DNA of 64,000 bases from Agromyces terreus (GTDB lineage Bacteria > Actinomycetota > Actinomycetes > Actinomycetales > Microbacteriaceae), in the NCBI RefSeq assembly GCF_009749465.1, contig NZ_WBIS01000003.1:186001-250000 (forward strand), given 5' to 3'. Positions 37,684 through 54,604 of this stretch are shown here, piece by piece; position 1 is the first letter of the stretch; the number at the start of each line of letters is the position of its first letter. Position numbers and translations under genes: made by a program. Below the pieces are notes generated by a model that was not told where the DNA came from, searched no databases, and saw nothing but the letters and a program-made list of their open reading frames with translations.

Positions 37684-38556
37684 CTACGCCGGCGCCCGCA
37701 GGTGGGGCGCGACGGCGGCCCCGAATGCCCGCGCGGTGCGCTCGACGACGTCGGGCCACGCGGCATCCCAGATCTCCTGGTTGAAGATCTCGACCTCGAT
37801 GTCGCGGTCGTAGCCCGTGGCCTCGACCGCGGCCGTGAGGCTTGCGAAATCGATTACGCCGTCGCCCGGCTCGTGCCGCGAGAGCAGCACGTCGGCGGCG
37901 AGCGGGGTGGCCCAGTCGCACACCTGGTAGGTCGCGATGCGTCCGGATGCCCCGGCGCGCGCGATCTGCGCGAGCACGTCGGGATCCCACCACACGTGGA
38001 ACGTGTCGACGGTGACGCCCACGACCTCGGGCGCGAACGGCTCCGCCAGGTCGAGCGCCTGCCCGAGCGTCGAGACCACCGCGCGGTCCGACGCGTACAT
38101 CGGGTGCAGCGGTTCGATCGCGAGCGTGACGCCGGCGGATGCCGCGTGCGGGGCGAGCTCGGCGAGGGCGTCGGCCACGCGCGAGCGCGCGCCGACGAGA
38201 TCGCTCGATCCGTCGGGGAGTCCGCCCGCGACGAGCACGAACACGGGCGTGCTGCCGGGTGCGCCCGCCGCCGCGAGGGTCGCCGTCTCGTCGATGCCGC
38301 GACGGTTGTCGTCGATCGACGCGCGCCGGTCGGGGCCCTCGGGCATGGTGAAGAACCCGCCGCGGCAGTACGTCGACAGGCGCAGGCCCGAATCGGCGAG
38401 GCGGCGGGCCGACTCGGCGAGCCCGACCTCGAGCACCGGCTCGCGCCAGAGCCCGATCGACGCGTAGCCGCCCTCGGCGGTGACCCGCAGGGCGTCGTCG
38501 AGCGACGCGTGCTTGATCGTCGCCTGGTTCATCGACAGGCGCGGATGGGCGCTCAC
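37684..38556 (-). CDS. Sugar phosphate isomerase/epimerase-like TIM-barrel protein
   Basis: A 290-residue AP-endonuclease-2-fold (xylose-isomerase-like) protein: HPRLSMNQATIKHASLDDALRVTAEGGYASIGLWREP, VTLAIEPLHPMYASD, VGVTVDTFHVWWDPDV, IATYQVCDWATP and DIEVEIFNQEIWDAAW. The Glu in AIEPLHP, the His in DTFHVWW, and the final Glu supply the usual metal site. Its GTG start overlaps the upstream DUF993 stop as GTGA, so it is the third gene of the Gfo/Idh - DUF993 operon. Probable role: isomerisation or lyase step on a keto-sugar made by the dehydrogenase; substrate unknown. Confidence 0.87.
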   Translation of the reverse strand: MSAHPRLSMNQATIKHASLDDALRVTAEGGYASIGLWREPVLEVGLAESARRLADSGLRLSTYCRGGFFTMPEGPDRRASIDDNRRGIDETATLAAAGAPGSTPVFVLVAGGLPDGSSDLVGARSRVADALAELAPHAASAGVTLAIEPLHPMYASDRAVVSTLGQALDLAEPFAPEVVGVTVDTFHVWWDPDVLAQIARAGASGRIATYQVCDWATPLAADVLLSRHEPGDGVIDFASLTAAVEATGYDRDIEVEIFNQEIWDAAWPDVVERTARAFGAAVAPHLRAPA

Positions 38557-39791
38557 GCAAGCACCTCCGCGCGGTCGTCGGCTGCGGCATCCGTCGGCTC
38601 GCCATCGGATGCCGCGGATGCCGCGGCGACAGCCGGGTCGAGTCCGTTGAGGGTGAGCATCGCGTGCCACCGCGCGGCCGCGAGCTCGGGGCGCTCGAGG
38701 GCGCCCGAGGCGTTCGCGAGCTCGACGATGCGGGACAGGTGCGGCAGGCTGCGGGCGGCGTGCAGGCCGCCCACCATCTGGAACGCGGCCTGGTGCCCGT
38801 TCAGCCAGGCGAGGAACGCGACGCCCGTCTTGTAGTAGTACGTGGGCGCGGCGAACACCTGCTGCGAGAGCGGTTCGGTCGGGGCGAGGATCGCGCGGTA
38901 GGCGTCGACGTCTCCGCGGTCGAGCGCCTGGATCGCGGCCGACGCGTTCGGCGCGAGGCACGAGAACGCGCCGAGCAGCGCATCGGAGTGCCCGACCTCG
39001 TCGCCCTCGATGAGCCCCACGTAGTGGAAGTCGTCGCCCGTGAACATGCGCGCTGACTCGGGCAGCCGGCGGCGCACCGAGATCTCGGCATCGGCGTCGA
39101 GCAGGCTCATCTTCACGCCCTGCACCCGGTCGGCGTGCTCGTCGATGATGGCGAGCAGCGTCTCGGCCGCGGCATCCGTCGCCTCCGAGCCGAAGTAGCC
39201 CGCGAGCAACGGATCGAACGCGGTGCCGAGCCAGTGCAGCACGACCGGCGTGCTCGCCGCGTCGAGCACCTCGCGGTACACGCGGCGGTAGTCGTCGGCG
39301 CTCTGCGCGGCGCGCGCCAGGTGGCGGCTCGCCATGAGCACGACGCCCGCGCCGGCGTCTTCGGTGTGGTGCAGCTGCTCCTTGTAGGCGTCGATCACCT
39401 CGTCGAGCGAGAGGTGCTCGGCCTCGACGTGGTCGGTGTTCACGCCGACGACGAGCGCGCCGCCCACGGATGCCGCTTCGGCGGCGCTCCGCGAGATCAG
39501 CTCTCGCGTGGCCGCGGCGTCGAGGCCCATGTTGCGCTGGGCGGTGTCCATGGCGTCGGCCACGCCGAGCCCCCACGACCACACGTGGTGGCGGAACGCG
39601 AGCGTCGCGTCCCAGTCGATCTCGGCCGGCTGCCCCGGCGTGTTGTCGGCGTGCCCCTTCGGCACCACGTGCGCGGCCGCGTACGCGACCCGGCTCTGCA
39701 GCGGCCGACGCGGCTTCGAGAACGTCGGGGCCTCGGCGAGCTGCACGGTGCGCAGTGCTCCGTCGGCGCCGACGAGCGTGAGCGAGGTCAT
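38553..39791 (-). CDS. DUF993 protein (dihydrodipicolinate-synthase-like TIM barrel)
   Basis: A 412-residue protein of the DUF993 family. Recognisable segments are RVAYAAAHVVPKG at the N-terminus, WDATLAFRHHVWSWGLGVADAMDTAQRNMGLD, TPVVLHWLGTAFDPLLAGYFG, VQGVKMSLLDADAEISVRRRLP with a Lys in the Schiff-base position of class I aldolases, and TYYYKTGVAFLAWLNGHQ. DUF993 is related to the DapA/NanA aldolase superfamily but no member is characterised as far as I know. It lies between a Gfo/Idh dehydrogenase (2-base gap) and a TIM-barrel isomerase (4-base overlap), so an aldol-cleavage or dehydratase step in sugar catabolism is the likeliest role. Confidence 0.85.
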   Translation of the reverse strand: MTSLTLVGADGALRTVQLAEAPTFSKPRRPLQSRVAYAAAHVVPKGHADNTPGQPAEIDWDATLAFRHHVWSWGLGVADAMDTAQRNMGLDAAATRELISRSAAEAASVGGALVVGVNTDHVEAEHLSLDEVIDAYKEQLHHTEDAGAGVVLMASRHLARAAQSADDYRRVYREVLDAASTPVVLHWLGTAFDPLLAGYFGSEATDAAAETLLAIIDEHADRVQGVKMSLLDADAEISVRRRLPESARMFTGDDFHYVGLIEGDEVGHSDALLGAFSCLAPNASAAIQALDRGDVDAYRAILAPTEPLSQQVFAAPTYYYKTGVAFLAWLNGHQAAFQMVGGLHAARSLPHLSRIVELANASGALERPELAAARWHAMLTLNGLDPAVAAASAASDGEPTDAAADDRAEVLA

Positions 39792-39793
39792 GG

Positions 39794-41044
39794 TCAGCGC
39801 GCTCCCGCGAACTCGGCCTCGGCGGCGGCGATCGCCGCGGTGTCGGATGCCGCAGCGTCGGATGCCGCGGCGCCCGCCTCGAGCGCGACGACCGGGATCT
39901 CGACGCGACGGCCCTCACGGCTCGACACGAGGCCCTGCTCGGCGAGGAGCACCCCGCGGGCGCCCGCGAGGAAGTCGAACTCGTTGGGCGCGTCCTCGAC
40001 GACGTGGCGGATGAACTCCTCCCACTGCGTCTTGAAGCCGTTCTCGAACTCGCGGTTGCCGGGGCTCTCGATCCAGTCGCCGGCGTAGTCGTGCTCGTCG
40101 GCGAGGTCGGGGTTCCAGACGGGCTTGGGCGTGGCGTTGCGCGGCTGGATCTTGCAGCCGAAGAGGCCCACGACGGCCGACCCGTGGGTGCCGTCGACCT
40201 GGAACTCGACGAGCTCGTCGCGGTTGACGCGCGTGGTCCAGCTCGAGTTGAGCTGGGCGACCACGCCGCCCTCGAGCTCGAAGATCGCGTAGGCCGCGTC
40301 ATCCGCCGTCGCGGGGTAACGATCGCCGCGCTCGTCGACGCGCTCGGGGATCTCGGTGACGGCCTTCGCGTAGACCGACTCGACGCGGCCGAAGAGGTTC
40401 TCGAGCACGTAGTTCCAGTGCGGGAACATGTCGACGATGATGCCGCCGCCGTCTTCGGCGCGGTAGTTCCAGCTCGGGCGCTGGGCGGGCTGCCAGTCGC
40501 CCTCGAACACCCAGTAGCCGAACTCGCCGCGCACGCTCAGGATGCGGCCGAAGAAGCCCGAGTCGATGAGGCGCTTGAGCTTCTGCAGGCCCGGCAGGTA
40601 GAGCTTGTCGTGCACCACGCCGTTCTTGATGCCGGCCTCATCGGCGAGGCGCGCGAGCTCGAGGGCCTCCTCGAAGGACTCGGCGGTGGGCTTCTCGGTG
40701 TAGATGGCCTTGCCGGCGGCGATCGCCTTCTTGATCGCGGCCGCGCGGGCCTTCGTCACGAGGAAGTCGGCGTAGATCTGCCAGCGGTCGTCGGCGAGCG
40801 CCTCGTCGAGGTTCGTCGTGTAGTGCTCGATGCCGTGCTTGGCGGCGAGGTCGGCGAGCTTCTTCTCGCTGCGGCCCACGAGGATCATCTCGACCTGCAC
40901 GCGGGTCTCGCCGTCGGCGAGGAGCACACCGCCCTGCTCGCGGATCGCGAGGATCGAGCGCACGAGGTGCTGGCGGTACCCCATGCGGCCCGAGGCGCCG
41001 TTCATGATGATGCCGATGGTCTGGGGAGCGACGGTGTCTGCCAC
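39794..41044 (-). CDS. Gfo/Idh/MocA-family oxidoreductase (operon copy)
   Basis: A 416-residue NAD(P)-dependent sugar dehydrogenase. The N-terminal Rossmann segment IGIIMNGASGRMGYRQHLVRSI is an unusual variant more like DapB than the usual GxGxxG. The catalytic EKP motif is present as AIYTEKPTAESFEEA, and IKNGVVHDKLYLPGLQKLKRLI with the later GGGIIVDMFPHWNYVLENLFG covers the active-site His/Asp region. The last ~25 residues are Ala/Asp-rich. It is first in the three-gene operon with DUF993 and the isomerase, behind the operator at 41097-41112. Confidence 0.9.
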   Translation of the reverse strand: MADTVAPQTIGIIMNGASGRMGYRQHLVRSILAIREQGGVLLADGETRVQVEMILVGRSEKKLADLAAKHGIEHYTTNLDEALADDRWQIYADFLVTKARAAAIKKAIAAGKAIYTEKPTAESFEEALELARLADEAGIKNGVVHDKLYLPGLQKLKRLIDSGFFGRILSVRGEFGYWVFEGDWQPAQRPSWNYRAEDGGGIIVDMFPHWNYVLENLFGRVESVYAKAVTEIPERVDERGDRYPATADDAAYAIFELEGGVVAQLNSSWTTRVNRDELVEFQVDGTHGSAVVGLFGCKIQPRNATPKPVWNPDLADEHDYAGDWIESPGNREFENGFKTQWEEFIRHVVEDAPNEFDFLAGARGVLLAEQGLVSSREGRRVEIPVVALEAGAAASDAAASDTAAIAAAEAEFAGAR

Positions 41045-41096
41045 GGTGATTCCTCTTCGAAACGGTCGAGCGGCGGTGCCGCCCGTGCGGGATAGC

Positions 41097-41112
41097 GGGA
41101 AAGCGTTTACCC
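41097..41112. promoter_or_regulatory. LacI-type operator upstream of the DUF993 operon
   Basis: GGGAAAGCGTTTACCC is a 16-bp imperfect palindrome with central CG (12 of 16 positions symmetrical), 53 bases before the dehydrogenase ATG. It lies between that gene and the 3' end of the LacI gene. A related site with the same GGGAAAGCG half occurs at 42421-42434. Confidence 0.75.
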
Positions 41113-41162
41113 GAGTGTGCCACAGGAATCACGGGGGCGCAACGGGTGCGTGCGTCCGCGCG

Positions 41163-42230
41163 TCAGGCGGCGGGGCCGGGGGTGCTCTCTCGGAGGACGA
41201 CCTCAGTCGAGACATCCGTCGACGAGGCGCGGGCGGACGCGGCATCCGCACCGTCTTCGAGGGCGAGCCGCAGGGCCTGCTCGCCGATGCGCTCGAGCGG
41301 CATGCGCACGCTCGTGAGGCGCGGTGTCACGTCGCGCACCGTGGGGATGTCGTCGAAGCCGGCGACGGCGAGGTCGCGGCCGGGCTCGAGGCCGGCGTCG
41401 CGGATCGCCGACATCGCGCCCATGGCCATCACGTCGTTGAGCGCGAACACGAGCTGCGTGTCGCCGATGCCCGCCTCGAGGAGGCGTCGCATGGCGTCGT
41501 AGCCGCCGTCGCGCGTGAACGAGCTGCGCACCAGGCGGTCGGCGGGCAGCTGGGCCCCGACCGAGGCGAGGCCCTCGGCGAATCCGGCGATGCGGTCGTG
41601 CGCGGTGCGCAGCGTCTCGGGCCCGGCGAGTGCGGTGAAGCGGCGGTAGCCGAGCTCGTGCAGCGCGACGGCGAGGTCGCGACCGCCGGCGCGGTTCGCG
41701 AGCGGCAGGGTGCGGAACGGCAGATCGCTCTCGCTGACGAACACGGCTCGCCCGCCGGTCTGCTCGTACGCGGTGAGCTCGGCCTCGAGCGCGGCGGCGT
41801 TCGGGTCGCCGATGTCGCGCGAGCCGGCGAGGATCATGACGCGCGGGCGCTGCCCGCGCATCGCACGCACGAGTTCGAGCTCGCGGGCGGAGTCGCGCTT
41901 GGTCTCGGCCATCGTGACGATGAGGCGGTCGTCGCCGGCGGCGCCGACGACGCCGGCCGCGAGCGAGGAGAAGTACGGGTCGGCGATGTCGGCGACGAGC
42001 AGGGCGACGGTGGTCGAGGTGCCCCTGGCCACGGCCTGCGCCGAGAGGTTGGGGGTGTAGCCGAGCTTCGCGGCGGCGGCGAGCACGCGTTCGCGGTACT
42101 CCTCGTTGACCTTGCGGGCGCTGCCGTTCAGCGAGCGCGAGGCGGTGGCGAGCGAGACGCCCGCCTCTCGGGCGACGTCGTGCAGAGTCGCCGGCGCGGT
42201 GCGGCGGGTGGGGGCGTCGCCCTCGATCAT
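41163..42230 (-). CDS. LacI-family regulator of the DUF993 module
   Basis: A 355-residue LacI protein. The HTH is ATLHDVAREAGVSLATASRSLNGSARKVNEEYRERV (residues ~15-50), the hinge is NLSAQAVARGTSTTVALLVADIADPYFSSLAAGV. The ligand domain has GGRAVFVSESDLPFRTLPLANRAGG and LAVAGFDDIPTVRDVTPRLTSVRMPLERIGEQAL. It is oriented with the operon (118 bases upstream of its first gene) and opposite to a second Gfo/Idh gene. Two matching operators flank it, so it probably controls both directions. Confidence 0.92.
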   Translation of the reverse strand: MIEGDAPTRRTAPATLHDVAREAGVSLATASRSLNGSARKVNEEYRERVLAAAAKLGYTPNLSAQAVARGTSTTVALLVADIADPYFSSLAAGVVGAAGDDRLIVTMAETKRDSARELELVRAMRGQRPRVMILAGSRDIGDPNAAALEAELTAYEQTGGRAVFVSESDLPFRTLPLANRAGGRDLAVALHELGYRRFTALAGPETLRTAHDRIAGFAEGLASVGAQLPADRLVRSSFTRDGGYDAMRRLLEAGIGDTQLVFALNDVMAMGAMSAIRDAGLEPGRDLAVAGFDDIPTVRDVTPRLTSVRMPLERIGEQALRLALEDGADAASARASSTDVSTEVVLRESTPGPAA

Positions 42231-42539
42231 CGATGTCCTCCTGCTGGCCGGATCCGCCGGTCGCTCCTTCGGGGGCGGGGCGGTTGCGTCGCGCTGGCGC
42301 GCGGGTCGGGTGCCGGTCGGCCGGGTGCCGCCCGCGACGGGCGCCTCACTTTACCGCGCGGCGTTCTCGGCGGGGGTTTTGCCGTGTGCCGTGTTTCTGA
42401 TAGACCTGTAACGAGCGTGAGATAGCGCTTTCCCGCAGGATTCCAGCGAGTCCTGCAGACTTCGGCGAGCCGACGGATGCCGCACCCGACGCGGTGCTCC
42501 GTCGTGCCGCCGCACACCCGCGAGGCGATGGAGCACAGC
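42231..42539. other. Divergent regulatory region between LacI and Gfo/Idh genes
   Basis: About 300 bases without a gene. The half nearest LacI is low-complexity G/C sequence. The half nearest the dehydrogenase is AT-richer around 42370-42435 and contains the operator at 42421-42434; a promoter for the dehydrogenase should lie here, but no convincing -35/-10 pair could be fixed by eye. Confidence 0.6.
42421..42434. promoter_or_regulatory. Second LacI-type operator of the DUF993 module
   Basis: GATAGCGCTTTCCC reads GGGAAAGCGCTATC on the other strand and shares the GGGAAAGCG half-site with 41097-41112. Its centre AGCGCT is palindromic. It lies between the divergent LacI and Gfo/Idh genes, about 105 bases before the latter. 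Confidence 0.65.
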
Positions 42540-43889
42540 ATGGCGCAGCACGGACGCGAACGGTACGCACTCATCGGCGCGGGCAGCCGCGCGGGCATGT
42601 ACATCGGGGCGATGTCCGGAACCGTGGTCGGCGCCGAGCACGTCGCCGACGTGGCCGAACTGGTGGCATGGTGCGACCCCAACCCGGGGCGGCTCGACGT
42701 CTACGAGCGGGAAGTGGTCGAGGCGGGGCATCCGGCGCCCGTCCGCTACGCGGTCGAGGACCTCGAGCGCATGATCGGCGCCGAGCGCATCGACCGCGTC
42801 GTCATCACCACGCCCGACTTCACGCATGCCGAGTACATCGTGCGCGCCCTGCGGGCCGGCGCCGACGTCGTGGTCGAGAAGCCGCTCACCATCGACGCCG
42901 AGAGCGTGCGCCGCATCGGCGAGGCCATCGCCGAGACGGGCCGCGAGGTGATCACGACCTTCAACTACCGCTACAGCCCCCGCAACTCGACGCTGCGGCA
43001 GGTCATCGCCGACGGGCGCATCGGCCGGGTCACGAGCGTGCACTTCGAGTGGGCGCTCGACACCGTGCACGGGGCCGACTACTTCCGCCGCTGGCACCGC
43101 CAGAAGCAGAACTCGGGCGGGCTGTTCATCCACAAGGCGTCGCACCACTTCGACCTCGTCAACTGGTGGATCGCCGCCGCCCCCGTGCGCGTGTTCGCGA
43201 GCGGCGGGCTGCGCTTCTACGGCGCAGAGAACGCCGCGGCCCGGGGGCTCGGCGAGCGACCCGCGCGTGGCACCGGAGCGTCGGGCGACCCGTTCGCCCT
43301 CGACCTCGCGGCCGATCCGCGGCTGAAGGCGCTCTACCTCGACCAGGAGCAGCACGACGGATACCTCCGCGATCGCGACGTCTTCGACGAGGGCATCACC
43401 ATCGAGGACAACCTCGCCGCGCTCGTCGACTACGACTCGGGCGCGACGCTCAGCTACTCCCTGAACGCCCACGCCCCCTGGGAGGGATACCGGGTGACCG
43501 TGAACGGCACCGAGGGCCGGGCCGAGCTCGAGGTCGTCGAGCGCGGATCGGTGCTCGTCGGCGCCCACGGAGAGGTCGTCGTCGACCCGAGCATGCACCC
43601 CGACGACGTCGTCGAGGACGACGTGCGCCCCCACTCCGAACGGCTGCTCGTGCAGCGGCACTGGGAGCAGGCCCGCGTCGTCGAGATCCCGCAGGGCATC
43701 GGCAGCCACGGCGGCGGCGACGCGTACCTGCTCGACCACCTGTTCCGACGGGTGACGGATGACGCGCCGCTCGGCCGTGTCTCCGGCTACGCCGACGGGG
43801 TGCGCGCCGTCTCGGTCGGCATCGCCGGCAACCGCTCGCTCGAGACCGGGCTGCCGGTGCTGATCGAGGAGCTCGAGCTCGGGGTCTGA
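42540..43889 (+). CDS. Gfo/Idh/MocA-family oxidoreductase (divergent copy)
   Basis: A 449-residue dehydrogenase. The Rossmann motif is YALIGAGSRAGMYIGAMSG, the nucleotide contact AWCDPNPGRLD, the EKP motif VVVEKPLTIDAESVRRI, and the active-site block is NSGGLFIHKASHHFDLVNWWIAA. It is longer than typical family members, with an insertion containing AENAAARGLGERPARGTGASGDPF and DQEQHDGYLRDRDVFDEGITIEDNLA. The ATG is preceded by GGAG at six bases. It shares regulator and operator half-site with the DUF993 operon, so both dehydrogenases may act on one substrate family. Confidence 0.9.
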   Translation: MAQHGRERYALIGAGSRAGMYIGAMSGTVVGAEHVADVAELVAWCDPNPGRLDVYEREVVEAGHPAPVRYAVEDLERMIGAERIDRVVITTPDFTHAEYIVRALRAGADVVVEKPLTIDAESVRRIGEAIAETGREVITTFNYRYSPRNSTLRQVIADGRIGRVTSVHFEWALDTVHGADYFRRWHRQKQNSGGLFIHKASHHFDLVNWWIAAAPVRVFASGGLRFYGAENAAARGLGERPARGTGASGDPFALDLAADPRLKALYLDQEQHDGYLRDRDVFDEGITIEDNLAALVDYDSGATLSYSLNAHAPWEGYRVTVNGTEGRAELEVVERGSVLVGAHGEVVVDPSMHPDDVVEDDVRPHSERLLVQRHWEQARVVEIPQGIGSHGGGDAYLLDHLFRRVTDDAPLGRVSGYADGVRAVSVGIAGNRSLETGLPVLIEELELGV

Positions 43890-44486: not shown

Positions 44487-45992
44487 TCAGCCGACCTGCA
44501 GCACGCCGTCCACGCGGCGGGGGATGCCGAGCGGGTTCGCGTCGCGCAGCTCGAGCGGCAGGGCCGACTCGGGGGCGTCCTGGTAGGCGACCGGGCGCAG
44601 GAAGCGCCGCATCGCGGTGACCCCGACCGACGTGTGGATCGACGAGGACGACGGCCACGGGCCGCCGTGCTGCTGCGCCCAGCTCACGGCGACGCCCGTG
44701 GGCCAGCCGCCGAAGAGCACGCGGCCCGCGATCTCGCTGAGCACCGCCACGACGGCCGTCAGGTCCTCGCCCGGCTCGGCGTGCACGGTCGCGGTCAGCG
44801 TGCCGCCGACCGCGGCGATCGCCTCGAGCGCCTGGTCGACCGACTCGTACTCGACGACGAGCGTCGACGGGCCGAAGCACTCCGCGTACAGCGAGCTCGG
44901 GTCCGCGAGCACGGCCTCGGCGGTCGTGGTGAGCACGACGGCCGACCCGGTGCCGACGGCATCCGCGTCGACCCGGCCGCCGGCGACGCGCACGTCGTCG
45001 CGCTCGACGAGCTCGTCGACCCCCGCGGCCCAGGCAGCGGCGATGCCGTCGGTCAGCATCGGCACCGCGGCATCCGCATCGATGACCGCTGCGACCCGCT
45101 CGGCGAAGCCCGAGCCGACGGGCGCGAAGACCACGCCCGGATTCGTGCAGAACTGGCCGGCGCCGAGCGTGAACGAGCCCGCGAGTCCGGCGGCGAGCTC
45201 GTCGGCGCGGGCCGCCGCGGCATCCGGCGTCACGAGCACGGGGTTCACGGCGCTCAGCTCGCCGTAGAAGGGGATCGGGTCGGGCCGCGACGACGCGAGG
45301 TCGAAGAGCACGCGGCCGCCGTGCAGCGAACCCGTGAACCCGACCGCGCGGATGCCGGGGTGCTGCACGAGGGCCGTGCCGTTCTCGCGGCCCACGATGT
45401 GCGCGAACAGGCCCTCGGGGGCACCGGCGTCACGGAGTGCCTCGGCCACGATCTCGGCCGTGCGCAGCGACAGGCGCGGGTGCGCCGAGTGCCCCTTCAC
45501 GATCACCGGGCAGCCCGTTGCGAGCGCCGACGCCGTGTCGCCGCCCGCCACCGAGAACGCGAACGGGAAGTTCGACGCGCCGAACACGGCCACCGGCCCG
45601 AGCGGCCGCAGGATGCGACGCAGGTCGGGGCGCGGCGGTGTGGTCGTCGCGTCGGGGTGGTCGACCGTCGCCTCGAGGTAGGAGCCCTCGACGATCGCCG
45701 TCGCGAACAGGCGCAGCTGCGCGGTCGTGCGCGCCACCTCGCCGTTCAGGCGCGCCGGCCCGAGGTGCGTCTCGGCGTCGGCGATGGGCACGAGCTCGTC
45801 GCGCGCGGCATCCAGGGCGTCGGCGATCGCCGTGAGCCAGGTCGCGCGCTGCTCGGCCGATGACGCGACCGACACCGCGAACGCGGCTCGTGCGGCCGCG
45901 ATGACCTCGTCGAGGGAGGCGGCGGCTCCGGCGGAGGCGGCGGACGGCGACGCCGGGCCCGACGTCGATGCGGTGTCGATGGTGCTCGTCAT
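44487..45992 (-). CDS. 2,5-dioxovalerate (alpha-ketoglutarate semialdehyde) dehydrogenase
   Basis: A 501-residue NAD(P)-dependent aldehyde dehydrogenase. Lys166 in CPVIVKGHSAHP, Glu245 in PFYGELSAVNPV and nucleophile Cys282 in GAGQFCTNPG are the catalytic residues; these surrounding sequences are specific for the KGSADH clade. Reaction: alpha-ketoglutarate semialdehyde to 2-oxoglutarate, the last step of the oxidative hexarate/pentose pathway. It is the fourth gene of the 49.1-44.5 kb operon, 67 bases after the enolase-superfamily gene. An Ala/Ser-rich N-terminal extension of ~25 residues precedes the fold. Confidence 0.9.
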   Translation of the reverse strand: MTSTIDTASTSGPASPSAASAGAAASLDEVIAAARAAFAVSVASSAEQRATWLTAIADALDAARDELVPIADAETHLGPARLNGEVARTTAQLRLFATAIVEGSYLEATVDHPDATTTPPRPDLRRILRPLGPVAVFGASNFPFAFSVAGGDTASALATGCPVIVKGHSAHPRLSLRTAEIVAEALRDAGAPEGLFAHIVGRENGTALVQHPGIRAVGFTGSLHGGRVLFDLASSRPDPIPFYGELSAVNPVLVTPDAAAARADELAAGLAGSFTLGAGQFCTNPGVVFAPVGSGFAERVAAVIDADAAVPMLTDGIAAAWAAGVDELVERDDVRVAGGRVDADAVGTGSAVVLTTTAEAVLADPSSLYAECFGPSTLVVEYESVDQALEAIAAVGGTLTATVHAEPGEDLTAVVAVLSEIAGRVLFGGWPTGVAVSWAQQHGGPWPSSSSIHTSVGVTAMRRFLRPVAYQDAPESALPLELRDANPLGIPRRVDGVLQVG

Positions 45993-46059
45993 GGTTCCTC
46001 GGTTCGTGTGCGGTTCGTGGCGGTTCGTGGGCGGTTCGAGTGGGCGGTCGAGTCGCGGG

Positions 46060-47124
46060 TCAGCGGAAGGTCAGGCCGAGACCGGGTCGACCGGTGGTGT
46101 GCACGAGGCTGCCCTCGACGGCGATCGGCGGGGGAGCGTCGAGCGCGCCGAGCGCCTCGAACGAGGCGTCCTCGACCGCCTCGACGAGGTGCTCGCCGGG
46201 CAGGGCGAGCGCGAGCTGCGCCGAGAGCTCGAGCAGCAGGTGGGGGTGCAGGTCGGCGCCGTGCGACGCCGCGAGCGAGGCGATCTCGAGGAACGGCGTG
46301 ATGCCGCCCACGCGCACGATGTTCGGCTGCACGAGGTCGGCCGCGCCCGCGCCCAGGAACTCGGCGAACCGGTACCGGGTGTGCACGTTCTCGCCGAGCG
46401 CGATCGGCACCTCGATGCGCTCGTGCAGCGCGACGTGGCCTGGCAGGTCGTCGGCGCGCAGCGGCTCCTCGATCCAGGCGAGGTCGAACACGGCGAGCTC
46501 GGAGATCGCGCGCTCGGCCTGATCGAGGCTCCACCGCTGGTTGGCGTCGATCATGAGCCGGCGGTCGGGGCCGAGCACGTCGCGCACCGCCCCGATGCGT
46601 TCGACGTCGTCGGCGAGGTCGGGGCTGCCGACCTTGACCTTCACGGCGTCGAAGCCCGCCGCGACCCAGCGTTCGACCTGGGCGACGAGCTCGGGCAGCG
46701 GGTAGTGCAGGTTCACGCCGCTGCCGTAGACGGTCGTCGTCTCGTGCTGCCGGCCGAGGTGGTCGGTGATGCCCAGCCCCGCGCGGGTCGCCGCGAGATC
46801 CCAGAGGGCGAGGTCGAGGCCGGCCATCGCGATGGTCGTGATGCCGCCGCTGCCGCCCTCGTGCAGGTGCGCCCAGAGCGGATGCCACAGGGTCGCCGCG
46901 TCGGCGTCGCGGCCGAGCGCGAACGCGGTGATGTCGTTCGCGAGGTGCGCCTCGACGGCGGCGGCGCCGATCGACGGAGTCCACGAGAACCCGCGGCCCT
47001 GCGCGCCGTCGGAGTCCTCGACGACGACCTCGACGAGCGCGAGCGAGCGCACGTCGGGCCCCCACGGCCGCAGCAGCGGCAGTTCGAGCCGGCGCGTCGT
47101 GATGCCGGCGATGCTCGCGGTCAC
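46060..47124 (-). CDS. Enolase-superfamily (mandelate racemase/muconate cycloisomerase group) enzyme
   Basis: A 354-residue enzyme of the mandelate-racemase group. Active-site features: Lys162-x-Lys164 in AVKVKVGSP, metal ligands Asp193 (MIDANQRW), Glu219 (WIEEP) and Glu245 (LGENVHT), then Asp263 (ADLVQPNIVRVGGIT) and His293/His295 (GADLHPH). In the operon it fits a galactaro-/glucarolactone cycloisomerase (Gci) or hexarate dehydratase that feeds the next enzyme. Which of these cannot be decided from motifs. GTG start overlaps the kdgD stop as GTGA. Confidence 0.85.
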   Translation of the reverse strand: MTASIAGITTRRLELPLLRPWGPDVRSLALVEVVVEDSDGAQGRGFSWTPSIGAAAVEAHLANDITAFALGRDADAATLWHPLWAHLHEGGSGGITTIAMAGLDLALWDLAATRAGLGITDHLGRQHETTTVYGSGVNLHYPLPELVAQVERWVAAGFDAVKVKVGSPDLADDVERIGAVRDVLGPDRRLMIDANQRWSLDQAERAISELAVFDLAWIEEPLRADDLPGHVALHERIEVPIALGENVHTRYRFAEFLGAGAADLVQPNIVRVGGITPFLEIASLAASHGADLHPHLLLELSAQLALALPGEHLVEAVEDASFEALGALDAPPPIAVEGSLVHTTGRPGLGLTFR

Positions 47125-48113
47125 GGCGTCGGCACCGCCACGACGGTCGGCAGGGCGGGGGCGGCGTCGGCCGGGGCGTCGCCGCCCAGCTCGGCGGCGA
47201 GCTCGAGCCCGCGCTGGAGGATCGCGGCGAGGCGCTGCTCCTGCTCGGGCGTGGGGTCGACGAGGGGCGGCCGCACGGGTCCGACGGGCAGACCGCGCAG
47301 GCGCAGCCCCGCCTTCACGAGCGAGACGCCGAAGCCCGGGGTCTCGTCGCGCAGGTTCACGAGCGGCGTGTAGAACTCGCGCAGCAGGGTCATGCGGGTC
47401 TGCTCGTCGCCGTCGGTGTAGGCGCGGTAGTGCAGGGCGGCGAGCTCGGGGATCATCGCGAACGCGGCCGAGGAGTACAGCGGGATGCCGATGCCCCGGT
47501 AGGCGCCCTGGCTGAGCTCGGCCGTGAGCAGGCCGTTGAAGAAGGCGAAGTCGCGCCCCGTGGCATCCGCTGCGAGCACGATCTCCTGCGCGAGGCCGAT
47601 GTCGCCCGTGCCGTCCTTGAAGCCGACGACCTTGGGGTTCGCCGCGAGCTGCGTGATGGCGTCGGCCGTGTAGCGCGCGGTGCCGCGGTGGTAGACGATC
47701 ACGGGCAGGTCGGATGCCGCGGCGACCGCCTCGACCCACGCGACGAGCCCGCTCGTGGTGCCCGAGACGAGGTACGGGGGCAGCAGCAGCAGGCCGTCGG
47801 CGCCGGCCGCCGCGGCGCCGCGTGCGAGCTCGACGGCGTGGCCGAGGGGTCCGCCCGCGCCGGCGATGACGGACACGCGGCCGGCGACGACGTCGACGGT
47901 GGCGCGCACGACGTCGATCGCCTCGGAGGCCGAGAGCGCGTGGAACTCGCCCGTGCCGCACGCCGGGAACACGGCGCCCGGCCCGAACGGCAGCCGCGAC
48001 TCGACGTGCTCGGCGAGGAGCGCGAGGTCGGGCGTGCCGTCGGCGGCGAACGGCGTCACGGGGAAGAACAGCACGCCGTCGAAGGTGAGGGAGGCGGGTG
48101 CGGCAGCGGTCAT
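47121..48113 (-). CDS. kdgD: 5-dehydro-4-deoxyglucarate dehydratase
   Basis: A 330-residue DapA-superfamily TIM barrel. The family signature FPACGTGEFHALS replaces the GTTGE of dihydrodipicolinate synthase and marks KdgD. Tyr141 in VIVYHRGTA and the Schiff-base Lys166 in VVGFKDGTGD are the catalytic residues. Reaction: 5-dehydro-4-deoxy-D-glucarate to alpha-ketoglutarate semialdehyde, water and CO2. An ATGA overlap couples it to the dehydrogenase upstream and a GTGA overlap to the enolase-superfamily gene downstream. The next enzyme, KGSADH, is in the same operon. Confidence 0.92.
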   Translation of the reverse strand: MTAAAPASLTFDGVLFFPVTPFAADGTPDLALLAEHVESRLPFGPGAVFPACGTGEFHALSASEAIDVVRATVDVVAGRVSVIAGAGGPLGHAVELARGAAAAGADGLLLLPPYLVSGTTSGLVAWVEAVAAASDLPVIVYHRGTARYTADAITQLAANPKVVGFKDGTGDIGLAQEIVLAADATGRDFAFFNGLLTAELSQGAYRGIGIPLYSSAAFAMIPELAALHYRAYTDGDEQTRMTLLREFYTPLVNLRDETPGFGVSLVKAGLRLRGLPVGPVRPPLVDPTPEQEQRLAAILQRGLELAAELGGDAPADAAPALPTVVAVPTP

Positions 48114-49075
48114 CGGAGGCTCGATTCGGTGAGTCGGACGGTGGAACGGTCGGTCGGTCGGGCGGCCTGCTCGGATGCCGCGAGCAGGCGTTCGACGGCG
48201 GCGGGGTCGAGCTCGGTGCGCCAGGTGCGCTCGGGCACCCAGTCGAGCAGGCGTTCGGCCTTCTCGATCGAGAAGACCGGGCGGCCGTGGCCGAGCGCGT
48301 CGGCGCCCGGCCCGAGGGCGGGCGCGTACTCCCGCCAGAGGTCGGCGACCGGCAGCACCGCGAGCGCGTCGGCGGCGCCGGCGAAGAAGCCCTCGCCGTC
48401 GACGACCGTCGCGGGCGCGGCGAGCCAGGCGGCGACGAAGGTGGCGGCGTCGCGGGCGTCGAGGTAGTTGAAGAGGCTCACCGCGGCGAGAGCCGGGTCG
48501 GCGAGGCGCTGCTCGAGCGTGTGCCCCTGCTGGGTGGGGGCGCCGGCCCATTCCTCGGGGGAGAGCACGTAGCAGGGGCGGAAGAAGCCGTACGCGGTGC
48601 GCTCGGTGCGTGCGAACTGGCGCACGGTCTCCTCGATGACGAGCTTGGACAGCGCATACGCGTTCGCCGGCGCCGGGGGCGTCCGCTCGTCGAGCGGCAC
48701 CCGGTCGGCGCGCCAGTCGGGGCTGCTGTAGCCGAGCACCGTCGGGCTGCTGGCCGCGAGCACGCGTTCGGCGCCGACCTCGGCGGCCGCCGCGAGCACG
48801 GTGTGCACGAGGGCCGTGTTCGTCATCAGGATGCGTCGCTCGGGGGCGCTGAACGGCACGGCGATGCCGGCCAGGTGCACGACGGCCTCGGGGCGCACCT
48901 CGGCGAAGAGGCGCTGCGCGGCGAGCGCGTCGATCAGGTCGACGGTGCGCTCGTCGACGCCGGGGAGGCCGACGGCGACCCGATCGGCGCCGACGACCTG
49001 ATGGCCGGATGCCGCGAGCCCGGCGGCGACGCTGCGCCCGAGGCGCCCGGCCGATCCGGTGACGATGACCCGCAT
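48110..49075 (-). CDS. NAD-dependent epimerase/dehydrogenase, uronate-dehydrogenase-like
   Basis: A 321-residue extended SDR. The Rossmann motif is IVTGSAGRLGRSVAAGL (the GRLGR resembles bacterial uronate dehydrogenase), VVHLAGIAVPFS follows, catalytic Ser is in LAASSPTVLGYSS and the Tyr140-x3-Lys144 pair in YALSK. First gene of the hexarate operon; with KdgD and KGSADH downstream, oxidation of a hexuronate to its aldarolactone is the most economical proposal. It is longer than known uronate dehydrogenases (~265 residues), so another sugar or an epimerase step remains possible. GGAGG ribosome-binding site precedes the ATG. Confidence 0.75.
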   Translation of the reverse strand: MRVIVTGSAGRLGRSVAAGLAASGHQVVGADRVAVGLPGVDERTVDLIDALAAQRLFAEVRPEAVVHLAGIAVPFSAPERRILMTNTALVHTVLAAAAEVGAERVLAASSPTVLGYSSPDWRADRVPLDERTPPAPANAYALSKLVIEETVRQFARTERTAYGFFRPCYVLSPEEWAGAPTQQGHTLEQRLADPALAAVSLFNYLDARDAATFVAAWLAAPATVVDGEGFFAGAADALAVLPVADLWREYAPALGPGADALGHGRPVFSIEKAERLLDWVPERTWRTELDPAAVERLLAASEQAARPTDRSTVRLTESSLR

Positions 49076-49096
49076 GTCGATCCTCCGTTGCTTTGG

Positions 49097-49108
49097 GAAA
49101 CCGCTTTC
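49097..49108. promoter_or_regulatory. LacI-type operator of the hexarate operon, site 1
   Basis: GAAACCGCTTTC (GAAA-NCGN-TTTC) lies just downstream of the -10 at 49117-49122 on the minus strand, over the start region of the hexarate operon and 22 bases before its ATG. Confidence 0.75.
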
Positions 49109-49116
49109 TTGTCGCT

Positions 49117-49229: not shown

Positions 49230-50249
49230 ATGGGCCAGCGCAGCCGGGCGACCACGATCGCCGACGTCGCCGCGCACGCCGGCGTCTCGCAGGCATCCGT
49301 CTCGCGTGTGCTCAACGGGCGGGCCAGCGTCGATCCCGAGATCGTGCAGCGCGTGCAGGCCTCCATCGCCGAGCTCGGCTACCGGCCGAGCCCCACCGCC
49401 CGCAGCCTCGTCAACGGACGCAACAACACCGTGGCGATGGTCGTCCCCGACCTCGAGAACCCGCTGTTCCAGGGCATCCTCAAGGGCCTCAGCCTCGCCG
49501 CCGCGCGCGACGGCTACCGCGTGCTCGTGGCCGACACCGCCGAGAACGTCGACGACGAGGAGGCGATCGCCCTCGAGGCCCGCCTGCGCTGCGACGCGCT
49601 CGTGCTCTGCGCGCCCCGCATGCCCGAGGCCGAGCTGCGCGCCCTCGTCGAGGCGGTCGCGCCCGTCGTCGTCGTGAACCGGCTGCTGCCGGGCGTCGAG
49701 GTGCCGGTCGTGGGCGTCGACTACGTGCGCGGCATCCGCGACCTCGTCGACCACCTGCACGCACTCGGCCACCGGCGCATCGCCTACGTCGGCGGACCGC
49801 CCACGAGCGCCTCGAACGCCGAACGCCGGAGGGGTCTGGCCGAGGCGCTCACGGCGCGCCCCGATGTGCGCATCGACGAGCTGCCCGCCGGCTCGAGGCT
49901 CGAAGACGGCTACGCGGCATCCGGCGCCGTGCTCGACGCGCACCGCGACGGCTGCACCGCCGTGATCGCCTTCAACGACCTCGTCGCCCTCGGCCTCATG
50001 ACGCGACTGCACGAACTCGGCGTCGAGGTGCCGCGCGACCTCTCCATCGCCGGATTCGACGACGTGCCGATGGCCGGCTTCGCGACGCCGAGCCTCACGA
50101 GCATGTCGGTGCCGCGCGGCGAGATCGGCGCGCAGACGTGGCTGCGGCTGCACGCCCTCATCGAGGGCGGGCCGGTCGAGCACTCGGTGCTGCACCGTCC
50201 GAGGCTCGAGGCGCGCGACAGCACCGCCGCGATCGGGGTTCGAGCATGA
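49230..50249 (+). CDS. LacI-family regulator of the hexarate operon
   Basis: A 339-residue repressor. HTH: TTIADVAAHAGVSQASVSRVLNGRASVDPEIVQRV (residues ~8-42); hinge: PTARSLVNGRNNTVAMVVPDLENPLFQGILKGLSLAA. Ligand domain with VVVNRLLPGVEVPVVGVDYVRG, GHRRIAYVGGP and ISIAGFDDVPMAGFATPSLTSMSVP-like sequence. Divergent from the hexarate operon across two GAAA-NCGN-TTTC-type sites. Its last codon overlaps the start of the M24-like gene as ATGA, so regulator and that gene are coupled. GGGAGG precedes the ATG. Confidence 0.93.
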   Translation: MGQRSRATTIADVAAHAGVSQASVSRVLNGRASVDPEIVQRVQASIAELGYRPSPTARSLVNGRNNTVAMVVPDLENPLFQGILKGLSLAAARDGYRVLVADTAENVDDEEAIALEARLRCDALVLCAPRMPEAELRALVEAVAPVVVVNRLLPGVEVPVVGVDYVRGIRDLVDHLHALGHRRIAYVGGPPTSASNAERRRGLAEALTARPDVRIDELPAGSRLEDGYAASGAVLDAHRDGCTAVIAFNDLVALGLMTRLHELGVEVPRDLSIAGFDDVPMAGFATPSLTSMSVPRGEIGAQTWLRLHALIEGGPVEHSVLHRPRLEARDSTAAIGVRA

Positions 50250-51443: not shown

Positions 51444-53510
51444 GTGCACTACGGCGCCGACTACAACCCCGAGCAGTGGCCCGACGAGATCTGGCCCGAC
51501 GACGTGGCCCGCATGCGCGAGGCCGGCGTCACCATGGTCAGCCTCGGCATCTTCTCGTGGGCGCGCATCCAGCCGCGCGAGGGGGAGTTCGACTTCGACT
51601 GGCTCGACCGGGTGATCGACCTGCTGCACGAGGGCGGCATCGCCGTCGACCTCGCGACGGCCACCGCGTCGCCGCCGCCGTGGGCGAGCGCCGCGTATCC
51701 CGAGCTCCTGCCGCGCGATGAGGACGGCAGCGTGTTCTGGCCCGGATCCCGACAGGCGTACGCGCCCTCGTCGCCCGTGTACCGACGGCTCGCCGGGGAG
51801 CTCGTCACCGCGCTCGCCGAACGGTATGCGCGGCATCCGGCGGTCGTCATGTGGCACGTCAACAACGAGTACGGATGCCATCTGAATGCCGACTACTCGG
51901 ATGCCGCGCGCGACGCGTTCCGTCGCTGGCTGGCCGACCGGTACCCCGACATCGACGCGCTGAACGCGGCGTGGGGCACGAACTTCTGGTCGCAGCGCTA
52001 CGGCTCGTTCGACGAGATCCTGCCGCCGCGCAAGGCGCCCTACAGTCGCAACCCCGGCCAGATGCTCGACTTCCGGCGCTTCACGAGCGACATGCTGCTC
52101 GAGTGCTACCTGATGGAGCGCGAGATCATCCGCGCGGCCGGCGCGACGCAGCCGATCACGACGAACTTCATGGGCGCGTTCAAGCCCGCCGACTACCGGC
52201 GGTGGGCCGAGCACGTCGACGTCGTGAGCGACGACTGCTACCCCGACCCGAACGATCCCGAGGGCTTCCGCGCCGCGGCGTTCTCGCGCGACCTGATGCG
52301 CTCGCTGAAGCCGGGCGTGCCGTGGCTGCTCATGGAGCAGGCGACGAACGCCCTCAACTGGCGCCCGACGAACGCGCCCAAGGCGCCGGGGCAGATGGCT
52401 GCGCTCAGCGCCCAGGCGATCGGGCGCGGCGCCGACGGCATCCTGTTCTTCCAGTGGCGGCAGTCGCGCGCGGGCGCCGAGAAGTTCCACTCGGCGATGC
52501 TGCCGCAGGCGGGCACCGACACGCGCACGTGGCGCGAGGTCACCGCGCTCGGCGCCGACCTCGCCGCGCTGCCCGCATTGCCCGCACCGGCACCGGGCGA
52601 TGCCCGCGTCGCGATCGTGTTCGACTGGCAGAACTGGTGGGCCGTCGAGGCATCCGACCACCCCATGAACGGGCTCGACTACGTCGCCGTCGTGCAGCGG
52701 TGGCACCGCGCCCTGCACCGCCGCCACGTGCAGGTCGACCTCGTGCCCGCGCCGCGTGCGGGCGAGTACGACGTCGTGATCGCGCCCCTGCTGTACCTGC
52801 TGAGCGAGACGGATGCCGCGGCGCTGACCGCGTTCGTCGAGGCGGGCGGGCACCTGCTCACGGGGCCCTTCAGCGATCTCGTCGACGAGCACGACCGCTT
52901 CCGCGACGGCGGATTCATGACGCAGCTGCGCGGCGTGCTCGGCGTCGACGTCGAGGACTTCGGCGCGCTCGTCGCACCCGATGCGCCCGCGGGGGAGCCC
53001 GGTGAGCGGTTCGCGCCCTTCGCGGGTGTCGGCGGTGCCGGGGTCGGCGGTGCGGGCGCCGGCGGTGCTGGCAGCGGCTCGATCGGGCTCGGCGAGGCCG
53101 TCGGCACGCTGCTCGCCGAGGAGCTGCGCATCGCGGATGCTGCGGTCGAGGCGTCGTTCACCGGCGGACGTCTCGCCGGGCGGCCCGCGCTGACCGTGCG
53201 CGCGAGCGGGTCGGGCACGGCCCGCTACCTCGCGACGGTGCCCGACGAGGCCGGAACCCAGGCCGTCGTCGACCACCTGCTCGCGACGACCGGTGCCGAG
53301 CCCGTCGTCGCCGGGCTGCCCGCCACCGTCGAGGCGATGCGCCGCGGCGACGTCGTCACCGTGGTCAACCACGGCGACGCCGCCTTGTCCGTGCCGCTCG
53401 CGGGCACCGACCTCGTCGGGGGCTCGGCGGTCGACGGCGTCGACCTCGAGCCGTACGCCTGGGCGATCGTGCAGACGGCGGCGGGCAGCTCGACCGGGGC
53501 CGCTGCATGA
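51444..53510 (+). CDS. GH42 beta-galactosidase
   Basis: A 688-residue glycoside hydrolase of family 42, starting at GTG with the family opening HYGADYNPEQWP. The acid/base Glu142 is in WHVNNEYGCH and the nucleophile Glu298 in WLLMEQATN. The trimerisation domain (residues ~390-600) begins with VAIVFDWQNWWAVE and a small C-terminal domain ends the chain. A Gly-rich tract (about 530-545) is unusual. No signal peptide, so it acts in the cytoplasm on imported galactosides. ATGA overlap couples it to the glycerate kinase gene. Confidence 0.95.
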   Translation: MHYGADYNPEQWPDEIWPDDVARMREAGVTMVSLGIFSWARIQPREGEFDFDWLDRVIDLLHEGGIAVDLATATASPPPWASAAYPELLPRDEDGSVFWPGSRQAYAPSSPVYRRLAGELVTALAERYARHPAVVMWHVNNEYGCHLNADYSDAARDAFRRWLADRYPDIDALNAAWGTNFWSQRYGSFDEILPPRKAPYSRNPGQMLDFRRFTSDMLLECYLMEREIIRAAGATQPITTNFMGAFKPADYRRWAEHVDVVSDDCYPDPNDPEGFRAAAFSRDLMRSLKPGVPWLLMEQATNALNWRPTNAPKAPGQMAALSAQAIGRGADGILFFQWRQSRAGAEKFHSAMLPQAGTDTRTWREVTALGADLAALPALPAPAPGDARVAIVFDWQNWWAVEASDHPMNGLDYVAVVQRWHRALHRRHVQVDLVPAPRAGEYDVVIAPLLYLLSETDAAALTAFVEAGGHLLTGPFSDLVDEHDRFRDGGFMTQLRGVLGVDVEDFGALVAPDAPAGEPGERFAPFAGVGGAGVGGAGAGGAGSGSIGLGEAVGTLLAEELRIADAAVEASFTGGRLAGRPALTVRASGSGTARYLATVPDEAGTQAVVDHLLATTGAEPVVAGLPATVEAMRRGDVVTVVNHGDAALSVPLAGTDLVGGSAVDGVDLEPYAWAIVQTAAGSSTGAAA

Positions 53511-54604
53511 GCCGCCGCATCGTGCTCGCGCCCGACTCCTTCAAGGGCACCGCGACCGCCGCGCAGGCCGTCGACGCGCTCGCGCGCGGCTGGCGTTCGG
53601 TCGCACCCGACGACGTGCTCGTCGCGATGCCCATGGCCGACGGCGGGGAGGGCACCCTCGACGCGTTCGCCGCTGCCGTGCCCGGCGCCGAACGCGTGCC
53701 GGTTGCCGTGCAGGGGCCCGACGACCGCACGGTCGACGCCTGCTGGCTGCGCCTGCCAGACGGCACCGCGGTCGTCGAGCTCGCGCTCGCGAGCGGCATC
53801 ACGCTGCTCGATCCGCTGCGCCCGCTCGAGGCGCACACCCTCGGCTTCGGGCAGGCGATCGCCGCCGCCCTCGACGGCGGGGCGACGGGGCTGCTGCTCG
53901 CAATCGGGGGCAGCTCGTCGACCGACGGCGGCACGGGTGCGCTCGCGGCGCTCGGCGCGAAGTTCGCGGATGCCGCGGGCGAGCCGATCCCGCTCGGCGG
54001 TGGGGGCCTGGCGCGCGTGCGCCTCGTCGACCTCTCGGGGCTTCGCGCGCTGCCCGCCGGCGGCGCCCGCATCCTCTCCGACGTCACGAGCCCGCTGCTC
54101 GGGCCCACCGGCGCGGCCGCCGTGTTCGGACCGCAGAAGGGCGCGTCGCCCGCCGACGTCGCGCTGCTCGAGGCGAACCTCGGCGCGCTCGTCGACGCCG
54201 TGCCGGGCGTCGCGTCGATCGCGGCACGTGCCGGGTCGGGCGCCGCGGGCGGCACCGGGTTCGGGTTGCTGCTCTGGGGTGCCTCGATGGCCGCGGGCGC
54301 CGGCGCGGTCGCCGACGCGATCGACGTCGACGCCGCGCTGCGGGGCGCCGACCTCGTCGTCACCGGCGAGGGCCGCTTCGACGGCCAGTCCGCCGCGGGC
54401 AAGGTGCCGAGCGAGGTCGCCGCCCGCGCGGCCGCCGCCGGCGTGCCGGTCGCCCTCGTCGCCGGTGCGATCACCGCGGATGCCTCCGGCTTCGCCGCAT
54501 CCGCCTCGCTCACCGACCTCGCCGGGTCGGGGGCCGCCGCGATGTCCGATCCGCTGCGCTGGCTCGAGGCGGCGGGGGCCGCGCTCGCGCGCGATGCGGG
54601 CTGA
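53507..54604 (+). CDS. Glycerate kinase (GlxK/GarK type)
   Basis: A 365-residue class II-like glycerate kinase: RRIVLAPDSFKGTATAAQAVDALARGWRS at the N-terminus, MPMADGGEGTLDAF (substrate loop), LLLAIGGSSSTDGGTGALAALGAKFAD, RILSDVTSPLLGPTGAAAVFGPQKGASP and VTGEGRFDGQSAAGKVPSEVA are all family motifs. Reaction: ATP-dependent phosphorylation of D-glycerate. The classical hexarate route in enterics uses such a kinase (GarK) after aldol cleavage, but the operon next door encodes the other branch through KdgD, so its link to that pathway is uncertain. Coupled to the GH42 gene. Confidence 0.93.
   Translation: MSRRIVLAPDSFKGTATAAQAVDALARGWRSVAPDDVLVAMPMADGGEGTLDAFAAAVPGAERVPVAVQGPDDRTVDACWLRLPDGTAVVELALASGITLLDPLRPLEAHTLGFGQAIAAALDGGATGLLLAIGGSSSTDGGTGALAALGAKFADAAGEPIPLGGGGLARVRLVDLSGLRALPAGGARILSDVTSPLLGPTGAAAVFGPQKGASPADVALLEANLGALVDAVPGVASIAARAGSGAAGGTGFGLLLWGASMAAGAGAVADAIDVDAALRGADLVVTGEGRFDGQSAAGKVPSEVAARAAAAGVPVALVAGAITADASGFAASASLTDLAGSGAAAMSDPLRWLEAAGAALARDAG

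Follow-up and report, generated by a model that had tools for sequence, protein, structure and literature searches.

The 64 kb stretch of the Agromyces terreus genome (3.71 Mb) analyzed here, hereafter the window, contains a conserved, probably regulated catabolic module. Its core is a row of three genes encoding a Gfo/Idh/MocA dehydrogenase (GfoA), a DUF993 protein, and a xylose-isomerase-like TIM barrel (TIM), all in the window together with a LacI-family regulator and a second, divergent dehydrogenase gene (GfoB). The gene arrangement, its conservation in relatives, and the operator-like sites that accompany it are observed directly in the sequences. We read the module, with a probability of about 0.6, as a LacI-repressed operon for the catabolism of a plant-derived sugar or sugar acid, by an oxidative route that would include a class I lyase step. 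A previous, sequence-only reading of this DNA had proposed such an oxidative logic, made of a dehydrogenase, an aldolase or dehydratase, and an isomerase, and we keep it as the best reading.

Conservation of the GfoA-DUF993-TIM row

The three genes are tightly packed: the end of GfoA at 39794 is separated from the ATG of DUF993 at 39791 by a 2-base gap, and the stop codon of DUF993 shares the GTGA at 38553-38556 with the GTG start of TIM. The genes, their strands, this gap, and this overlap are all as first described. The family of DUF993 (PF06187) is present in 71 of the 249 genomes of the window's taxonomic family and in 36 of the 396 genomes of its phylum. Among the best-scoring family and phylum loci (30 matches listed per search, leaning towards the DUF993 subfamily of the window), 57 out of 58, the window's own locus included, have GfoA upstream and TIM downstream of DUF993 on the same strand, in a count restricted to labelled families no more than 1.5 kb away; the exception is L040. 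A second set, the best 80 of 588 candidates from named genomes, leans towards the same subfamily and was reduced to 79 loci after L077 was dropped. Gene calls give the full triad in 75 of them; among the four others, tblastn recovers it at L109 and L129, it is interrupted by gaps at L113, and it is absent at L122. The conservation of the DUF993 neighbours claimed earlier thus holds for the window's subfamily.

The triad is also found on plasmids. We hand-picked 16 plasmid contexts from 147 records and labelled their types by hand: a Gfo gene directly precedes DUF993 in half of them (8/16), TIM comes next in 7 of these 8, and the triad is contiguous on six alpha-proteobacterial plasmids. In the remaining 8, the place of Gfo is taken by a nearby gene for a CoA-transferase, an enoyl-CoA hydratase, or both. 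Finally, GfoA lies beside DUF993 in 15 of the 20 DUF993 stretches taken from 19 family genomes that lack GfoB. A search of viral contigs found nothing.

Two further observations concern the DUF993 loci at large. The protein occurs with CoA-transferase, enoyl-CoA hydratase, acyl-CoA dehydrogenase, or SDR genes at L140, L142, L143, L146, L149-L151, L153, and L225-L227, and several of these loci keep TIM or glycerate kinase. The dropped locus, L077, is titled Vibrio cholerae strain 35D, encodes a DUF993 70% identical to that of the window, and is probably an actinobacterial contig that carries a wrong label or stems from contamination.

The LacI regulator and its operator-like sites

Many loci carry, upstream of GfoA, a CG-centred palindrome near GGGAAAGCGCTTTCCC. 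Searched as a fixed 16-mer with at most 3 mismatches, it turns up in 80 of the 108 rows upstream of GfoA, compared with 100 of the 1719 regions upstream of other genes; the GfoA rows come from relatives and still contain duplicates (L069 and L228 give the same site), and the regions of the other genes include divergent neighbours with a shared promoter. Within the window, the 16-base palindrome matches with at most 2 mismatches only upstream of GfoA and between LacI and GfoB (Table 1). These are also the only two such matches in the whole genome, where three further sites have 3 mismatches and the reversed pattern, used as a control, gives 3. None of 100 dinucleotide shuffles of the window equalled the two sites (on average 0.00 matches per shuffle at 2 mismatches, 0.19 at 3). 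The operator-like sites proposed beforehand are therefore borne out, the second one extending over 42419-42434 (previously 42421-42434), and their retention in relatives makes a single regulon likely, as had been suggested.

A LacI-family gene lies at most 3 genes from DUF993 in 57 of the 79 named-genome loci. The triad thus has the two marks of a LacI-regulated operon, a LacI gene and a conserved palindrome upstream, while binding of the regulator itself is predicted. Judging from these sequences, the three genes are probably co-transcribed and repressed by their own LacI. Since 7 of the 8 divergent gaps between LacI and GfoB (the window's included) have a match at no more than 3 mismatches, whereas L098 has none and L097, where both genes are co-oriented, has a best match with 4 mismatches, GfoB is likely to be controlled jointly with the triad in close relatives, but not in general. 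Two other candidates for the regulon were set aside. The site at 49095-49110, an unlikely third operator, has 3 mismatches and adjoins another LacI gene, and the glycerate kinase of the window has no site at up to 3 mismatches nearby.

Table 1. Genes and operator-like sites of the window discussed in the text
Feature	Position	Strand	Sequence	Remarks
TIM, xylose-isomerase-like metal TIM barrel	37684-38556	-		Third gene of the core row; PF01261 (AP_endonuc_2), 118.8 bits
DUF993, predicted class I (Schiff-base) lyase, DapA-like fold	38553-39791	-		PF06187, 562.7 bits
GfoA, Gfo/Idh/MocA dehydrogenase	39794-41044	-		First gene of the core row; Pfam Gfo domains
Operator-like site upstream of GfoA	41097-41112		GGGAAAGCGTTTACCC	2 mismatches
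LacI-family regulator, upstream of GfoA	41163-42230	-		PF00356, PF13377
Second operator-like site, between LacI and GfoB	42419-42434		GAGATAGCGCTTTCCC	2 mismatches
GfoB, second Gfo/Idh/MocA dehydrogenase	42540 (or 42477)-43889	+		Pfam Gfo/Idh/MocA domains; divergent from LacI
Aldarate-type row	44487-49075	-		ALDH 44487-45992, MR dehydratase 46060-47226, KdgD-like 47205-48113, SDR/epimerase 48110-49075
Another LacI gene, beside the aldarate-type row	49230-50249
GH42 glycoside hydrolase	51444-53510			Lies, with the glycerate kinase behind it, about 8-10 kb beyond the 37684-43889 interval
Glycerate kinase, possible distal partner	53507-54604	+		PF02595, 342 bits

Predicted enzymes and a candidate pathway

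The match of the DUF993 protein to PF06187 (cut-off of 24 bits) covers positions 2-382 of 382, and there was no match in NCBIfam at E 0.001. Its structure was predicted with a mean predicted local distance difference test score (pLDDT) of 89.4. The closest Foldseek match is the solved structure 4dnh (SMc04132, 48% identity), and the remaining 49 rows listed are all proteins of the DapA/N-acetylneuraminate lyase (NAL) type, with template modelling (TM) scores (target) of 0.66-0.83 and E values from 6.2e-11 to 9.1e-9. Both the prediction and 4dnh point to a DapA-like fold with a well-placed Lys. This residue, K227, is the Lys of the VQGVKMS motif that had been proposed as the Schiff-base residue; it lies within strand 223-229, the sixth of the predicted barrel when 36-39 is counted as the first, and is shared by all 127 DUF993 sequences compared, so that its assignment to the Schiff-base position is upheld. 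H186, within the fifth strand (183-188), is equally invariant, as are D82, T83, R86, W187, G189, D193, S229, E236, and G252-D254, and this includes the 15 sequences without an adjacent GfoA. The simplest reading is that DUF993 would catalyze one fixed reaction in several pathways. It resembles the DapA/NAL superfamily in its barrel fold and in the Lys on strand 6, and differs from it in length (412 residues, versus 289-310 in the solved relatives listed), in having His rather than Tyr on strand 5, and in forming its own Pfam family.

The two partners of DUF993 also have solved relatives. The predicted structure of TIM (pLDDT of 95.6) is nearest to 7vpf and to SMc04130 (3ju2, 3qc0; 44% identity), followed by IolI, the dehydratase fusion 5hmq, L-ribulose and ketose 3-epimerases, and the 3-keto-glucoside 4-epimerase YcjR. 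Its residues E148, D184, H187, D214, and E254 are invariant in 26 rows and are likely metal ligands, as is typical of the family. GfoA has a solved relative in 3oqb (E 4.8e-152). At least 97% of 115 rows keep its E117 K118 P119, D205, and H209, the EKP motif and D..H pair to which catalysis is assigned in such dehydrogenases. No NCBIfam model reaches its own cut-off for GfoA, GfoB, or TIM.

We infer from these elements the individual reactions, their order, a three-carbon product, and the class of the substrate. GfoA would use NAD(P)+ to oxidize the substrate, giving a keto (or lactone) intermediate. TIM would act on this intermediate as a metal-dependent keto-sugar isomerase or epimerase, by a shift or an inversion. 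Lys227 of DUF993 would then form a Schiff base, upon which the keto acid would be split (or dehydrated), and the three-carbon product may enter as glycerate via glycerate kinase. The LacI probably also controls GfoB, which would link the module to an aldarate-type row ending in 2-oxoglutarate.

Several observations weigh against this pathway. Each of its enzyme reactions is a prediction, and no site at up to 3 mismatches is found in 28 of the 108 GfoA upstream rows. H186 sits where DapA-type enzymes have Tyr, DUF993 is the only family reported for the protein at E 0.001, with no match to the DHDPS family of Pfam (PF00701), and a profile-profile comparison with KdgD falls short of significance (E 0.34). 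In this non-significant alignment, K227 falls opposite the invariant Lys of KdgD and H186 opposite its invariant Tyr141, so that the kinship to DapA and KdgD is argued from the fold. The earlier claim that DUF993 is kin to DapA-type aldolases is supported by the fold and by the Lys on strand 6, but not by the strand 5 residue or by the Pfam search. Regarding gene context, GfoA was not called beside DUF993 in 15 of 127 rows (one row counted as another context, L206, may be cut by a contig end). These rows include 5 of the 20 stretches from GfoB-less genomes (L215, L224-L227). The DUF993 of these five is 42-48% identical to that of the window, and the neighbourhood, stable in the window's subfamily, is different in such distant homologs. 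Glycerate kinase is near the triad only in a minority of loci, and the copy of the window is about 12 kb from GfoA. Finally, the neighbouring transporters and glycosidases vary and point to no substrate.

In favour of the pathway, glycerate kinase does recur, in 17 of the 79 named-genome stretches and in 7 of the 16 plasmid stretches, and the one in the window is 66% identical to a copy near the triad in L059. The neighbours of the triad in relatives include NMT1-type ABC, CUT1, TTT, or TRAP transporters and GH95, GH38, GH42, or DUF2264 genes. NMT1/SsuA-like ABC genes were seen near the triad in two phyla (L066, L075, L093, L094, L103, L108, L124, L130, L148), and an anionic substrate would fit such transporters. 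A DUF2264 protein is encoded near the triad in L059, L062, L063, L069, L070, L089, and L139; its link to glucuronate glycans is only a guess.

A more specific scheme, which we regard as unlikely, gives DUF993 the role of a new class I aldolase that always frees the same three-carbon unit, hydroxypyruvate, from varied 2-keto-polyhydroxy acids. TIM would convert hydroxypyruvate into tartronate semialdehyde, whose reduced product would reach glycolysis through glycerate kinase, and the other fragment would depend on the neighbourhood: a sugar-type aldehyde beside GfoA, and in the other context an alkyl-type aldehyde handled by ALDH, CoA-transferase, and beta-oxidation enzymes. This would explain why the two contexts share one unvarying DUF993 active site although their remaining neighbours differ. 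However, it needs an activity of TIM that the family models speak against: the protein scores 32.7 and 27.3 bits on the hydroxypyruvate and 2-oxo-tetronate isomerase models, far below their cut-offs (353 and 325), and was rejected as a member of either family.

GfoB, the aldarate-type row, and related systems

The second dehydrogenase, GfoB, is more likely to start at the ATG at 42540 (MAQHGRERY) than at 42477, as suggested by the relative L060. At E 1e-100 it is found in 41 of 249 family genomes, 35 of which also encode DUF993 (11.7 expected, P 6e-17, phylogeny being uncorrected beyond genus). By genus, the co-occurrence is 20 of 23 (9.7 expected, P 2e-7), and the two genes are at most 25 kb apart in 17 of the 35 genomes that have both; these counts and distances were read by hand. 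However, 36 of the 71 family genomes with DUF993 lack GfoB at this threshold. Furthermore, when GfoB is away from DUF993 or in genomes lacking it, it adjoins an SDR-KdgD-MR(-ALDH) row, or KdgD and MR genes, directly in 17 of 20 stretches (L241, L246, and L249 are the exceptions). GfoB was therefore rejected as a core member, and of the two-dehydrogenase module put forward earlier only GfoA belongs to the core, GfoB being tied in many relatives to the aldarate-type row. Many stretches in which GfoB accompanies this row carry another LacI and CUT1 transporter genes, and DUF6807 proteins or Gfo-DUF6807 fusions were seen near GfoB or CUT1 genes (L193-L201, L234-L237, L243-L245).

In the window, the KdgD-like protein scores 385.5 bits on the subfamily model PRK03620 (cut-off 278) and 272.6 on the equivalog TIGR03249 (cut-off 373.95). 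For the MR protein, the best NCBIfam model is that of talarate/galactarate dehydratase, whose cut-off it does not reach. With the KdgD-like protein below its equivalog cut-off and the MR protein below that of its best model, we only infer that the row may encode an aldarate-type route to 2-oxoglutarate. Its SDR gave weak generic matches and was not accepted as a proven uronate dehydrogenase. Three Nocardiopsis loci (L095, L112, L125) have KdgD-like and MR genes directly after TIM, which makes another link between the two modules.

An alternative reading is an oxidation-elimination pathway for glycosides, in which GfoB would oxidize C3 of a glycoside or glucuronide, TIM would perform a beta-elimination or a hydration, GfoA would reduce the 3-keto sugar, and DUF993 would concern a side product. 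The best solved relative of GfoB is indeed a glucuronide-3-dehydrogenase (8tdi; partial match, E 6.2e-20), and YcjR is among the fold neighbours of TIM. Extracts of two papers describe this logic, with Gfo-type enzymes and proteins that carry a sugar phosphate isomerase annotation, for levoglucosan (PMC7676230) and for O-glucosides (PMC10628242). The corresponding operons (LgdA-B1-B2-C, and GlycDH/OGE/HYD/Gfo of A. tumefaciens) resemble the module in combining a dehydrogenase with an isomerase-like protein but, as far as these extracts go, have two isomerase-like proteins and name no DUF993-like enzyme, whereas DUF993 is the constant core here. Moreover, GfoB is missing in 36 of the 71 DUF993 genomes of the family at E 1e-100, none of the 6 sequence matches of TIM is named glycoside eliminase, and GfoA and GfoB score 61.6 and 59.3 bits on the levoglucosan dehydrogenase model NF052479 (cut-off 650). 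Taken together, these points leave such a pathway doubtful.

The closest known arrangement is that of plasmid pAO1 of Paenarthrobacter nicotinovorans, where, as in the window, GfoA (61% identity) directly precedes DUF993 (50.7%) and a glycerate kinase is present. Unlike here, neither TIM nor LacI is listed as adjacent, and the plasmid has a GntR regulator, a GMC oxidoreductase, an AldH, and an ABC transporter. Mihasan and colleagues are reported to have purified the pAO1 dehydrogenase (ORF40) in 2013, to have found that it preferred D-xylose, and to have proposed a putative oxidative xylose pathway; the gene order observed on the plasmid fits this ORF numbering. The paper on this pathway is cited by title in an extract of PMC6305408, while extracts of two other pAO1 papers (PMC10494377, PMC6214936) contain nothing on the GfoA-DUF993 cluster. 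By analogy, the module could be a Weimberg/Dahms-like D-xylose route, with GfoA as D-xylose dehydrogenase and DUF993 as a 2-keto-3-deoxy-pentonate aldolase or dehydratase. The similarity to the pAO1 cluster, where GfoA is found beside AldH, DUF993, and glycerate kinase, is in its favour, as is the reported D-xylose preference of the pAO1 dehydrogenase. Against it, the Gfo6 model of D-xylose dehydrogenase gives GfoA only 29.3 bits, with a cut-off of 350, and no pentonate dehydratase was seen among the recurrent neighbours scanned, although no search aimed at IlvD/EDD was made; an MR-type gene occurs in 6 of the 79 named-genome stretches. An isomerase and a glycerate kinase would presumably be superfluous in such a route, which we find improbable, and we continue to favour the oxidative operon with a class I lyase step.

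In Sinorhizobium meliloti, the solved relatives of TIM (SMc04130, 44%) and of DUF993 (SMc04132, 48%) have close locus numbers. A table in an extract of PMC12542648, the one paper found to name them, gives SMc04132, SMc04133, and SMc04135 as uncharacterized or putative proteins, SMc04133 being a putative oxidoreductase. Full-text searches of open PubMed Central (PMC) papers returned no paper naming DUF993, only an unrelated paper for the DUF993 accessions and Protein Data Bank (PDB) codes, and no paper for DUF2264 or for the combination of gene products. The initial description of the module as undescribed agrees with this silence on DUF993, but has to be qualified since pAO1 carries GfoA, DUF993, and glycerate kinase.

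All three core proteins have solved relatives (4dnh, 3ju2/3qc0, 3oqb) whose names come without a defined reaction. Once their association in a single, probably regulated gene row is recognized, these three orphan structures can be tested together as parts of one pathway, for a family, DUF993, that is widespread near the lineage of Agromyces terreus. If this reading is true, DUF993 would be a new class I lyase, which would interest enzyme engineers.

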